Shown here: positions 17,568 through 62,011 of the stretch, piece by piece | How the letters are laid out: each line of letters starts with the position of its first letter | Position numbering within the stretch: position 1 is the stretch's first letter | Assembly: GCA_026004775.1 (NCBI GenBank) | Contig: BPJU01000017.1 | Location: 62,001-126,000, forward strand | Length of the DNA stretch: 64,000 nucleotides | Reading direction: 5' to 3' | Origin: Pirellulaceae bacterium | Lineage (GTDB): Bacteria > Planctomycetota > Planctomycetia > Pirellulales > Pirellulaceae | The notes under the pieces: generated by a model | Databases searched by the model: none | What the model saw: only the letters and a program-made list of their open reading frames with translations | Told to the model about the DNA's origin: nothing | Program-made: the position numbers and the translations under genes

Positions 17568-17647
17568 CCTGGGCACAACGGTCTTCTCGAACGTCGGACG
17601 ACTTACACTACTTGCTGGCACTAGCGGTTAGCTATTAACAACGGCCG

Positions 17648-17698
17648 TAGCGGAACTCGTACGGTGGACGCGCCAGCGTCCGCCGCAAGACTTCCGCC
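17648..17698. repeat. Two-tier hairpin repeat, copy A
   Basis: Outer arms GCGGAACTC / AAGACTTCCGC enclose an inner hairpin GGTGGACGC-GCCA-GCGTCCGCC. Same architecture as copies at 17782, 17854 and 60041. The inner stem differs in sequence between copies but stays paired. Confidence 0.75.
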
Positions 17699-17781: not shown

Positions 17782-17834
17782 CGTAGCGGAAGTCGCTAGG
17801 CGGAACGCGCCAGCGTTCCGCCGTAAGACTTCCG
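17782..17834. repeat. Two-tier hairpin repeat, copy B
   Basis: Outer arms CGGAAGTC / GACTTCCG, inner arms GGCGGAACGC / GCGTTCCGCC around the loop GCCA. This is the most regular copy, with the inner 10-bp stem perfect. Confidence 0.8.
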
Positions 17835-17853: not shown

Positions 17854-17904
17854 CGTAGCGGAAGTCGCCAGGCGGCTGCGCCAGCAGTCGCCGTAAGACT
17901 TCCG
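17854..17904. repeat. Two-tier hairpin repeat, copy C
   Basis: Outer arms CGGAAGTC / GACTTCCG, inner arms GGCGGCTGC / GCAGTCGCC around GCCA. It is in the same orientation as copy B and only 20 bases after it. Confidence 0.8.
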
Positions 17905-17999
17905 AACCAAAAACTCCCCATCAGGCGCCCCCGTCCTCCACCATCGCGTAGAGCGCGCCAGTGTTCGACCCGCTCGTTCTATTTCGAATATTCGAACAT

Positions 18000-18045
18000 C
18001 GGAACACTTACGCCGTTCGCTTTCGCGAACGGCTAGCGTGTTCCG
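18000..18045. repeat. Nested palindrome with GGAACAC/GTGTTCC arms
   Basis: Outer arms CGGAACAC (18000-18007) and GTGTTCCG (18038-18045) enclose a second perfect hairpin CCGTTCGC-TTTC-GCGAACGG (18013-18032). The outer arms recur as a hairpin at 60129-60150 in the other accessory island. Confidence 0.7.
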
Positions 18046-18179
18046 CTACCATTCGGCGGATCGCGGCTTGGCTCGGCTCGCAGACGAGGCTAGGCTCACA
18101 CGGGAACTGGCTCACCCACCGGCCAAGCTCCGGTGCCGAGCGGCGCGGTGCGGCGGACAAGGCTGGCGGATTGATTGGT

Positions 18180-20072
<1,893 letters not shown>

Positions 20073-20381
20073 CGCCGCCTGCCCCCCTCCATTGGAGAAT
20101 CGCCGTTGCACTTTTGGTGCAGCCAACCCGCGCGGCTCGGTTTTCCCAGCCTCGCTTCTTCATCGGATGCGGCCAGAATTCGGCCCACAAAATCCCAGGA
20201 AAGAGCTTCTCAACACACCAAAGACAAGACCCTGCCCCTCACCGGGTACCCGGCTTTCAAAAACAAGATGCCCCGACAAAAGATTCGGACCGTCTTAACA
20301 GCCTCAAGCTCCCATCGAGCAACCCATGCAAAGATGCCGCCCCACGAAGCTCGGGCTGCTTCGAGAGCCCAGCGACTCTGC

Positions 20382-22148
20382 CTAACTTGTGTCCGGCGGC
20401 GGCCTCGCATCGGCCTCCGCCGAGCTTCCTTCAGCTTGGGCCCTCAGCATCGCCCGCCGCCGAGCCACCCACTCGCGCAAGCCCAATAGCTCCTGAGCCC
20501 CACGCACCAGGTCCACCCGCCACAACTCGCCAGCCTCCACAATCCGGCTGATCGTCAACTTCACTCGAGCCAACGCCCCTCGTAGCTCCGCCATCCGCTC
20601 CTCACTCACCCCCAACAGCTCAGCCACCGCGTCGGCCAACTCCTCCGGCGTCTGCCGAGCCGCCAACAACCGATCGGCCCACCTCGCTCGATCTTCCTCC
20701 CCCAACAAGCCCGGCACCCGACCCACACGCGCACACTCGGTAAGCCACTCGATCAGCTTCTGCCGAGCCCTTTGAAGCTGTTGCTCGTCCAAGGCTCCCA
20801 TCCTGAACTGCCGCTGGCCCTGCCTCCACTCGTCATACCGCTTCTTGTCAAACACCACGTCCTGGTCCTCTGGCTTGATCTGCCGCCATGCACACCAGGT
20901 CGTCCCCACCAACCGCACAAGCTCAGCCCACTCCACTTCGTCGATCGGCCCAATCCCAAGAGCATGCTGCCAAGAGAGGCCCTCGCCCATCTCACCGCTG
21001 TACCTGCGGCAGTCCACCGGACCCAGCTTGATCGGCGGCACTGGCAGTTTTAGTTGTTTATCACGCTCGACTTCCTGCCTGCCAGTCGCGGCACGGGAAG
21101 TTTTCCTTTTATTACGAGAACCTCGCAACTCCGCTCGCGCTTGCCCACCTCCCAAACGAGATGGCACTTGCCCACCTGGCGAAGCAGCCACCGTTTCTTC
21201 AGTAGGTGCACCCGACGCCGCCGCTTCGTCAAACGATGTTTCCGAGTTACCCGACACCTGGCCACCTGCCGCCGGAGCCTCCGTTTGTTCAACAGCCGAA
21301 GGTTCAGCGGTTGTCTCGTCGGACAAGTCGGCCTCTTCGGTTAGCTCGCCATCATCGATATCCCCATCCACTACCCGCTGCATGCCCTCTCTGAGCAATC
21401 GAAAAGCTCTGCCCAACGAGGCACGCACCTCGTCGCTTAACTGAGGCGTATCGGCCAGCGTTTCCTCGGTGACCTCCACACCGCACACCTGGATCGCATA
21501 GACCAGCCGGCACCACCCAGAACCATGGTGCGGCTGCTCCAAGACCGGCACCATCCGCACCGCCACCGGGTGTGCGTCGATCAGCATGTTCATGGTCACC
21601 GAATCCGCCGGGTTCTTCTCCGGAGTGCCAGAAAACCGTTCGGACCAAAAGCACCCCCGCACACCGTCTTCACGGTTAAAGTGAAAAGCCGAAGTCTGTT
21701 TGATAAGCTTCATGAACAGCGACACGGACGAGAGCCTCTCCCGCATTTCTTTCTGGAACTTTTGGTCTTCCAGCAGCACCGCTGGAGGATTTCTCTTCCA
21801 CCGGCATTCAATACCGTTCTCTTTGCAATACTCTCTGACCAGTTTGCGAAGTCCCTTCCAGGCTCGCTGGAGCACTTCCTCGTTCGACCAGCTTTTTACC
21901 CAATCGGGTCGTAGCTGCAAGCTGATCAGAATCGCCTCGGGCAGTATCGTGCAGGAATAGACTACCAGGCCGAAGACGCTGGCGTAGTGCACCACCTTTT
22001 CGAACAAGAAGAGTGGCCGGTCGATGCGCTCGTCTACTCGTGATGGGTCTCGCCGGATAAGCCCCTCTTGGCGCACGCAGGTCGAGCCGCACAACAGGCG
22101 GACCACGTCACCCGTCGAAAAAACGTCGCAGCGTCGTGGCCGAGCCAT
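20382..22148 (-). CDS. RAYT/Y1-transposase-like protein lacking HUH, paralogue 1
   Basis: A 588-residue protein. Residues 1-205 follow the long RAYT (TnpA_REP, IS200/IS605-like) family: VVYSCTILPEAILISLQL and KSWSNEEV sit where active members have AYAVMSNHYH plus WS-EEV, and FNREDGVRGCFWSERF (157-172) and LIDAHPVAVRMV match the ANREDG-G-FWEGRF and VDLNPIRAG motifs. The HUH histidines are replaced (PEAILI, 70-75). Residues 260-390 are a Ser/Ala/Glu-rich linker. The C-terminus (LGPVDCR, GIGPIDEVEWAELV, LLGLREWVARRRAML) is shared with the gene at 60.4 kb. Start ATG 22148 has AAGGAGGT 7 bases upstream. Likely a non-catalytic DNA-hairpin-binding descendant. Confidence 0.75.
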   Translation of the reverse strand: MARPRRCDVFSTGDVVRLLCGSTCVRQEGLIRRDPSRVDERIDRPLFLFEKVVHYASVFGLVVYSCTILPEAILISLQLRPDWVKSWSNEEVLQRAWKGLRKLVREYCKENGIECRWKRNPPAVLLEDQKFQKEMRERLSSVSLFMKLIKQTSAFHFNREDGVRGCFWSERFSGTPEKNPADSVTMNMLIDAHPVAVRMVPVLEQPHHGSGWCRLVYAIQVCGVEVTEETLADTPQLSDEVRASLGRAFRLLREGMQRVVDGDIDDGELTEEADLSDETTAEPSAVEQTEAPAAGGQVSGNSETSFDEAAASGAPTEETVAASPGGQVPSRLGGGQARAELRGSRNKRKTSRAATGRQEVERDKQLKLPVPPIKLGPVDCRRYSGEMGEGLSWQHALGIGPIDEVEWAELVRLVGTTWCAWRQIKPEDQDVVFDKKRYDEWRQGQRQFRMGALDEQQLQRARQKLIEWLTECARVGRVPGLLGEEDRARWADRLLAARQTPEELADAVAELLGVSEERMAELRGALARVKLTISRIVEAGELWRVDLVRGAQELLGLREWVARRRAMLRAQAEGSSAEADARPPPDTS

Positions 22149-22312
22149 CCGTGGTACCTCCTTGAAATGGTGCAAGATTCCCTGTGCCTTTGCTGCCACT
22201 ACTCGATGCGCGCAGCCCATCGAGCGCCGGCATTCCGAGCAGCCTAGCAAATTCTCGGAAAAACTAAACCTATGTGGCCTTGTTTGCTCTACCATACGGG
22301 TGTCACACTATG

Positions 22313-22336
22313 CCCGACTTTTTTAAAAAATCGGGG
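22313..22336. terminator. AT-cored palindrome, possible bidirectional terminator
   Basis: CCCGACTTTTTT directly followed by AAAAAATCGGGG: a 12-base arm pair with one mismatch and no loop sequence beyond the T/A core. It lies about 165 bases upstream of the RAYT-like start, so a structural or regulatory palindrome is as likely as a terminator. Confidence 0.35.
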
Positions 22337-60040: not shown

Positions 60041-60090
60041 GTAGCGGAAGTCGCAAGGCGGACGCGGTAGCGGCCGCCGCAAGACTTCCG
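60041..60090. repeat. Two-tier hairpin repeat, copy D
   Basis: Outer arms CGGAAGTC / GACTTCCG, inner arms GGCGGACGC and GCGGCCGCC around GGTA. It has the same architecture as copies A-C at 17.6-17.9 kb, 42 kb away. Confidence 0.8.
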
Positions 60091-60373: not shown

Positions 60374-62011
60374 ATGGGACGAAGTGCTCGATATGAGATC
60401 TTGCCGGAAGGCAAACCGCTGCGGGTGGCGTGCATCTCGGAGTGTTCTCGCCAGCAAGCCCTGCTGGGCAAGGATCGGATACTGGGAAAGGATTTCTCCC
60501 ACAGGCGCAAGATTCTTCTAGAGACGTGTAGCCGCTATCGTCCGGCGTTTGCCTTGGAGCTCTATTCGACGGCTGTGCTGCCCAACGCCTGGGTAAGCTA
60601 TTTGCACGTGCATCCGGAGTGGGCGAAGAGCTGGTCGGCCCAGGAGCTACTGCTTCGCGTAAAGCATGCTTTTCCCAGGTCCGTTGCCAAGAGGTGCAGG
60701 GAGCACCGCATCCGCTGGAGGCGTAATGCACCGCCACCAGAAGTGCTTTGCCAGGACGTGGAGTTTATTGAGTATTGGCGCGGGCAATTGGCTTCGCTGC
60801 CCTTTTTCGAACAAGTGGTCAAGCAACGCGTGGCGATCCTCTTCAACCAGGAGGACCAGGTAAGCGGCCACTTTTGGTCGGACCGGTACGGGTCGGTGCC
60901 GGTCAATGCCGAGTCGCATTCGATCCTGGTGGCATTGATTCAAGAAATCGAGCTGGTTTCGACCGGTGTGGTCCCGATATCAGAGGTGTGTCACAGCGGT
61001 TCGCTGTGGGACCGATACGTGGGTTTGATGCGTGAGAAAGGCCTGGAAAACGACGACAGCTTGCTCCAGGTGGTAACGGACCTCAACGAATTGGTGATCA
61101 CGGGACTGCGGACTCCGGACGGTGGCCGGATCCAGGTGGCGGGTGTGAGGCGGGAATCGGGGTTAGTGGTAGCGGGCGGGCTGCACGTGCCGGATGGTGC
61201 ACAGAATTCATCACAGCAAAATCCGGCACGGCAAAGTCCGTCCAGGCGAAATGCATCAAGGCAAAATGCGTCCCGGCAAGGCCGGCAGGCGGATGGGGCG
61301 GCGAGTGCCGGCGCTGTTGAGCCAATACAAATTGATGGCTATGTGGAAGAAATACGCGAAGTGCTGGCGTTGGGTCCGGTGGATTGCCGGACAGAGGGCT
61401 GGCCGGCAGCCGACGTCGACCAGTGGCACGGGATATCGGGAATCGGGCCGGTCGACCCGGTCGAATGGGTAGCGCTTTCGCGGTGGTTGGGTGCCACATG
61501 GCGGATTTGGCGGTTGATGAAGCCCAGCGCCGATGTGGAAGAGGAGCAGATACACCGCCCGGGTCGCCATTGGAAAATCACGGACGAATTGCTCCAGGTC
61601 AAGCCGCTGGATGAGAATCTGCGAGACCGAGTGCGCCGGAACTTGGCCCATTGGCTTCAGGTGTGGGGGCAAGCCTGTCAACTGTCCGGCTTGAGCACGG
61701 AGGAAGAGGTTCAACAATGGGTCGAGCGGTTATTGCTGGTAAGGGAGAATCCGGACGAGTTGGCGGGCGTGGTTGCGCTTCTTTTGGGGTATGGGCAGGC
61801 GGAGTTGGAGAGGTTGCGCGGGGTGCTCGGGCGGGTGCGGTTGCGGGTAGCGGATGTGATACGGACGGGCGAGGCGTGGGTGCGCAATCCGCTGAGGACC
61901 GCCAAGGAGTTGTTAGGGTTTAACGATTGGGTGAGGCGGCGGCGTGCGTTGCTGCGTAGCCAGCGCGAGGAGCGGGCAGGCTCGGACGAGAATCGGTTGG
62001 ACTCGAGTTAG
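60374..62011 (+). CDS. RAYT/Y1-transposase-like protein lacking HUH, paralogue 2
   Basis: A 545-residue paralogue of the protein encoded at 20.4-22.1 kb. It is closer to active long RAYTs at the N-terminus: GKDFSHRRKILLE matches their GK-YEHRR-W-E, and LYSTAVLPNAWVSYLHV with WAKSWSAQEL matches AYAVMSNHYH-VLHV and WS-EE. FNQEDQVSGHFWSDRY (157-172) matches ANREDG-G-FWEGRF. The HUH histidines are replaced (PNAWVS, 70-75) and no tyrosine is seen in the FNQED helix. Five 15-base units encode a linker at about 280-304. The C-terminus (LGPVDCR, GIGPVDPVEWVALSRW, LLGFNDWVRRRRALL) is shared with paralogue 1. ATG 60374 has AAGGAG 9 bases upstream. Confidence 0.75.
   Translation: MGRSARYEILPEGKPLRVACISECSRQQALLGKDRILGKDFSHRRKILLETCSRYRPAFALELYSTAVLPNAWVSYLHVHPEWAKSWSAQELLLRVKHAFPRSVAKRCREHRIRWRRNAPPPEVLCQDVEFIEYWRGQLASLPFFEQVVKQRVAILFNQEDQVSGHFWSDRYGSVPVNAESHSILVALIQEIELVSTGVVPISEVCHSGSLWDRYVGLMREKGLENDDSLLQVVTDLNELVITGLRTPDGGRIQVAGVRRESGLVVAGGLHVPDGAQNSSQQNPARQSPSRRNASRQNASRQGRQADGAASAGAVEPIQIDGYVEEIREVLALGPVDCRTEGWPAADVDQWHGISGIGPVDPVEWVALSRWLGATWRIWRLMKPSADVEEEQIHRPGRHWKITDELLQVKPLDENLRDRVRRNLAHWLQVWGQACQLSGLSTEEEVQQWVERLLLVRENPDELAGVVALLLGYGQAELERLRGVLGRVRLRVADVIRTGEAWVRNPLRTAKELLGFNDWVRRRRALLRSQREERAGSDENRLDSS
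61211..61285 (+). repeat. Five in-frame 15-base units in the linker
   Basis: Units start at 61211, 61226, 61241, 61256 and 61271 and share the core GGCAAAATSCG with substitutions, encoding S/A-R/Q-Q/R-N/S-P/A pentapeptides (residues about 280-304). This is a recent or slippage-prone tandem expansion inside the hinge between the RAYT-like domain and the C-terminal domain. Confidence 0.7.

Follow-up and report, generated by a model that had tools for sequence, protein, structure and literature searches.

Discussion of RAYTs has treated them as the first bacterial transposases to have been domesticated; what role they have besides cutting is an open question. The question is met again in the window analysed here, a stretch of 64,000 nucleotides from a Pirellulaceae bacterium, in which one gene encodes a RAYT-like protein without the HUH motif. 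What could such a protein do for the DNA that carries it?

The gene lies on the reverse strand at positions 20382-22148 and has 588 codons and a stop; comparison with its paralogues and of its domains placed it as the A type of an HUH-less family. The preliminary description of this DNA gave the right coordinates for an intact protein of 588 amino acids, and the good ribosome-binding site that it claimed is AAGGAGG (22157-22163, reverse strand), located 8 nt ahead of the ATG at 22148 and kept in nearly all A copies.

Copies, sub-families and relatives

The genome of this bacterium (6.14 Mb, 30 contigs, 99.9% complete) had about 90 matches to the gene. With a family profile we identified 31 full-length open places, comprising nine of A type, six of B type and 16 of C type, and there were also about 13 broken copies and small remnants. 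B proteins were 47-48% and C proteins 30-33% identical to A, and all three sub-families were HUH-less. In the N-domain tree A, B and C formed one HUH-less clade (SH-aLRT 100), so the simplest reading is a single loss before the three sub-families formed. Several copies had common ends and different flanks, as in a mobile insertion sequence. The idea of one intact domesticated gene is thus not supported; the gene is one of many copies in a family of mobile elements whose ends are defined. A second HUH-less gene in the window, of C type and encoding 545 amino acids, was located at 60374-62008 on the forward strand, with a GTAG-REP (60041-60090, forward strand) about 330 nt upstream. Alleles among the copies looked mosaic; gene conversion may lead to an underestimate of the age of the copies and may contribute to keeping them intact.

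When 149 genomes of the bacterial family were searched, 82 besides the own genome had N-terminal homologues, with about 25-33% identity over residues 1-216; in all 59 homologues examined, H-x-H and Y-x-x-x-N were where they were expected. An HUH-intact long relative was not found in the own genome, where the sole other possible case, a trace on contig 22, was a C-like HUH-less pseudogene. No relatives came from two scans of GTDB contigs and one viral scan, which may not include the own genome or those very close to it.

N-terminal domain and lost catalytic residues

Searches of the window protein against Pfam, NCBIfam, PADLOC, PHROGs and PDB sequences gave nothing meaningful. Because the protein had no worthwhile sequence match in Pfam, NCBIfam or PDB, the RAYT family call, which had been made from motifs, needed a test. 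Profile-profile alignment (hhalign) of the HUH-less set with 37 HUH-intact long RAYT homologues gave 99.8% probability and an E value of 8.9e-29 over residues 1-217. The N domain was modelled by AlphaFold2 with pLDDT mostly 80-93, and its top Foldseek match (E 0.0098, prob 1.00) was 4er8, a structure of TnpA_REP with a REP hairpin; the next 29 matches were chains of IS200/IS605-type TnpA transposases. The family call was therefore right in both profile and fold: residues 1-217 are a Y1 transposase domain of RAYT/TIRYT type, and structure prediction, which had been proposed as a check, found the Y1 fold present. Another proposed check, the Pfam Y1_Tnp profile, did not match the window protein and matched 13 of the 48 aligned sequences.

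The profile-profile alignment was gapless across the HUH region, where the window protein reads P-E-A-I-L-I. The two histidines correspond to A72 and L74, and codons 72-74 (21927-21935, reverse strand) encode Ala-Ile-Leu at the place of His-x-His in the HUH-intact homologues, so the claimed loss of HUH is correct. The catalytic Tyr, which is Y115 in E. coli TnpA_REP (PMC8266576), was also lost as claimed, but it had been placed wrongly in the AFHFN segment (154-158), where HUH-intact homologues read A-R-x-A-N or similar without Tyr. Its true position is L189 (21582-21584, reverse strand), within the helix 180-196. The class signature around this Tyr is Y---NP (PMC6006769), and codon 193 (21570-21572, reverse strand) encodes His in place of the metal-binding Asn of HUH-intact homologues, for which the role of N119 has been described (PMC6006769).

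H72, H74, Y189 and N193, in window numbering, were present in 37 of 37 HUH-intact homologues from related genomes. At the same positions the window protein has A, L, L and H, B has A, L, L and Q, and C has A, V, I and E, which means that none of the four was kept in any sub-family. Among 59 N-domain columns conserved at 90% or more, 30 were kept in A, 30 in B and 24 in C. The catalytic centre is lost completely and the rest of the N domain partly. This loss is not chance, because the same four residues are missing in all three sub-families and present without exception in the HUH-intact homologues.

An intact HUH elsewhere in the protein had been named as a result that would speak against the loss. 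No H-x-H exists anywhere in A or B copies, but the C type has one at 78-80. It reads H-V-H or H-L-H in each of the 14 C copies that we examined, lies six residues downstream of the former HUH, and sits on or beside the same predicted strand.

C-terminal domain and linker

The C-terminal domain, which had been called an added one, is present, but it is better regarded as replaced or diverged beyond recognition, since a C-terminal region is found in HUH-intact homologues too. That it is the ordinary long-RAYT domain is unsupported, as similarity to the C-terminal region of the HUH-intact homologues was undetected. The domain is predicted to be all-helical and is an orphan: its model had no fold match in PDB, and its profile, searched in 397 genomes of the order and 392 of the phylum, matched the own genome only, plus one chance-level match.

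The linker of A copies showed different small indels at one spot, codons 347-353 (AATAAAAGGAAAAC), in seven of 15 copies, two of them in frame. These recurrent indels may be a mutation hotspot or sequencing error.

Selection on the copies

Selection was estimated from intact copies only, which recombine and whose pairwise counts share differences, and on this basis within-family dN/dS was 0.31 in A, 0.14 in B and 0.23 in C. The N domain gave 0.21, 0.15 and 0.22, respectively, below the linker. Changes private to single copies stood at 0.34 (A), 0.25 (B) and 0.20 (C) of neutral, with binomial p of 4e-4, 1.5e-3 and 1e-12. Private changes should be near neutral under a master-copy model, yet they were purged, which suggests that each copy needs the protein. 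With the Y1 fold kept, HUH and Tyr lost and purifying selection persisting, it is reasonable to propose a non-catalytic role. The earlier suggestion of lost catalysis with selection for another role holds to this extent, while the hairpin binding proposed as that role is plausible only.

Ends of the elements and REPs

Fifteen A copies had common DNA as far as a sharply defined right end, which in the window is a weak hairpin, CGGGTG.CACAC.ATG..CG, with a T-run (22297-22330). Past the T-run the flanks differed, and a diverged outer repeat was common to some A copies beyond this end. The left side of A elements had one to four tandem units with the GGGGACAG hairpin; the window copy has an inner one at 19975-20085 and an outer tandem copy at 19558-19656. 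With GGGGACAG units at the left and a different right end, a matching terminal inverted repeat was not clear. Spreading of the left units alone as MITEs was considered and rejected, as they were almost always tied to A elements.

The approximate left limit of the A element is an outer motif, AACCAAAAA..CATCAGGCG (17905-17955), 14 nt after a GTAG-tagged REP (17855-17904, forward strand). Two more GTAG-tagged REPs are at 17783-17834 and, degenerate, at 17647-17696, both on the forward strand, and a REP-like GTAG hairpin of opposite orientation is at 18000-18049 on the reverse strand. The REP folds into a bulged hairpin that leaves the GTAG foot free, and the genome had at least 122 exact-arm copies. 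A GTAG-REP preceded the outer motif CATCAGGCG in nearly all A copies that keep this motif, and the spacer was 14 nt in all but one of them. One A copy (L030) was an exception, with unrelated sequence from the point of the outer left motif and no REP. Its left flank, inspected by eye, abuts a group II intron reverse transcriptase-like sequence. The REP association was seen on one side of A elements only and was inconsistent in B and C; the REP may be either a target or a component of the element. A search of Rfam gave nothing.

An IS110-like element with approximate limits of 18190-19440 (reverse strand) is inside the left part of the window A copy, and its insertion place was common only to this copy and another locus (L022, C3:370 kb). 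A further locus (L036, C5:190 kb) is a deletion derivative of the A element: of the gene about 40 codons remain, together with the right end and the REP side.

B and C elements had their own ends, distinct from those of A, and C had arrays of GGTGCCAGGCAC. The C flanks were more diverged than the C core. At about 130-750 nt upstream of the ATG, C copies had a diverged repeat of 70-84% identity (for example L046:7970-8600), which was found almost only beside C elements, whereas the first 128 nt upstream of the ATG were 98-100% identical in many pairs. This upstream flank as a second gene was rejected, since it had no convincing ORF. A search of the own genome for empty sites with the C flank as query found C copies only, plus one short solo match, and so gave no empty site.

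Comparison with known systems

One close parallel is the TIRYT/TIRtron (Di Nocera 2013, PMC3733652), to which subclass 2.1 in the scheme of Quentin 2018 (PMC6006769) is related. Like the A element, it has a RAYT-like protein, a single gene and repeated terminal motifs. TIRtrons have terminal inverted repeats on both sides, often GGGGWSAS (PMC3733652), and the A left unit GGGGACAG fits this motif. However, HUH and Tyr are reported as conserved throughout the TIRYTs (PMC3733652), whereas A, B and C lost both, and the HUH-less family has an unrelated C-terminal domain. The HUH-intact relatives in three other genomes were multicopy, with arrays of GGTGGGTGCC or GGTGCCACCCACC, or with GGGGCCATCCAT-type repeats, on both sides; their tandem terminal repeats were GGTGCC-type or GGGGCC. 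These arrays are the TIRtron pattern of PMC3733652.

The best structural match, E. coli TnpA_REP (4er8), belongs with the GTAG-REP RAYTs, and A elements adjoin GTAG-REPs likewise. TnpA_REP cuts REP DNA via HUH and Y115 and is usually single-copy, whereas the HUH-less family is multicopy without both. ISPpu9, an IS inserted in REPs, is multicopy beside REPs as A elements are, but carries its own transposase (PMC8450116), while the gene of the A element is a dead relative of a REP transposase. IS200/IS605 TnpA (IS608, ISDra2) has the Y1 fold and subterminal hairpins in common with the HUH-less family, which differs in having neither HUH nor Tyr and in its extra helical domain.

How the elements may spread

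We favour one joint explanation, to which we give an even chance as a whole: the gene would be the sole coding gene in a mobile element with RAYT/TIRYT ancestry, and its protein would recognise the hairpins at its own ends with cutting borrowed from elsewhere. The common ancestor of A, B and C would have lost both HUH histidines as well as the catalytic Tyr and the metal-binding Asn, and each sub-family would then have spread through the genome. The protein of each copy may recognise the end hairpins of its own element, and for A also the adjoining GTAG-REP, with the DNA cut by something other than the HUH-less protein, probably a separate nuclease. Dead chemistry in the ancestor, later amplification and selection on each copy, taken together, suggest a protein that works in cis, for the copy that encodes it, and does without the known HUH chemistry. 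Hairpin binding is plausible by analogy, because the nearest structure is TnpA_REP on a REP hairpin and A copies adjoin GTAG-REPs. Counting against this explanation are the diverged C upstream repeat, which extends beyond the apparent end and is unexplained by simple transposition, the inconsistent REP association of B and C, and the mosaic copies.

The amplification of sub-families that followed the loss, with separate ends in each, would also be expected if the protein were still a nuclease, cutting DNA with a moved active site, with other residues or with the C-terminal domain. The best lead for a moved site is the C-type H-x-H at 78-80, found in every C copy examined; other candidates are E/D/N at 71, position 193, which stays polar as H, Q or E, and Y55, which is invariant in A, B and C. 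But A and B have no H-x-H at all, the catalytic helix is without Tyr in every sub-family, the candidate sites differ among sub-families, and the all-helical C-terminal domain has no recognisable fold. We regard a moved active site as unlikely. The element could also be a passenger moved in trans by an unrelated or lost HUH enzyme, with the dead protein as a regulator or repressor of movement, which would correspond to the silencing of REP mobility suggested earlier. Catalytically inactive relatives are known as repressors in other transposon families, and the genome does have other HUH-intact Y1 enzymes. One is an IS200-type Y1 gene (L061, C16:42747), and another a 221-aa RAYT with PNHVH and YIATNP and apparent palindrome-derived inserts (GARHAVPL) (L062, C2:517890). 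However, the former sits in a long array of CCCAGGCCTTCGGCCTGGG palindromes, different from those of the family, the own genome yielded no HUH-intact long relative, and a single mobiliser would have to accept the different ends of three sub-families, so mobilisation in trans seems quite unlikely.

The mosaic alleles, the purifying selection and the C flanks more diverged than the core would all be matched with a host-domesticated DNA- or RNA-binding family under concerted evolution, dispersed long ago and kept similar by gene conversion. The sub-family-specific ends, the many copies with about 13 broken ones among them, and a C-terminal domain without relative in the sampled genomes are against it, and we consider it improbable.

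Significance

Under the favoured explanation of recognition with borrowed cutting, as with a moved active site, a Y1-fold protein without HUH and Tyr would spread with its element family, either with a new active site in the HUH scaffold or as the DNA-recognition half with a borrowed nuclease; we put this at just short of an even chance. The amplification of a dead branch into three sub-families, under selection that acts on single copies, makes a non-cutting function of RAYTs directly testable. If the elements still move, an HUH-family element would work without HUH chemistry in its own protein.
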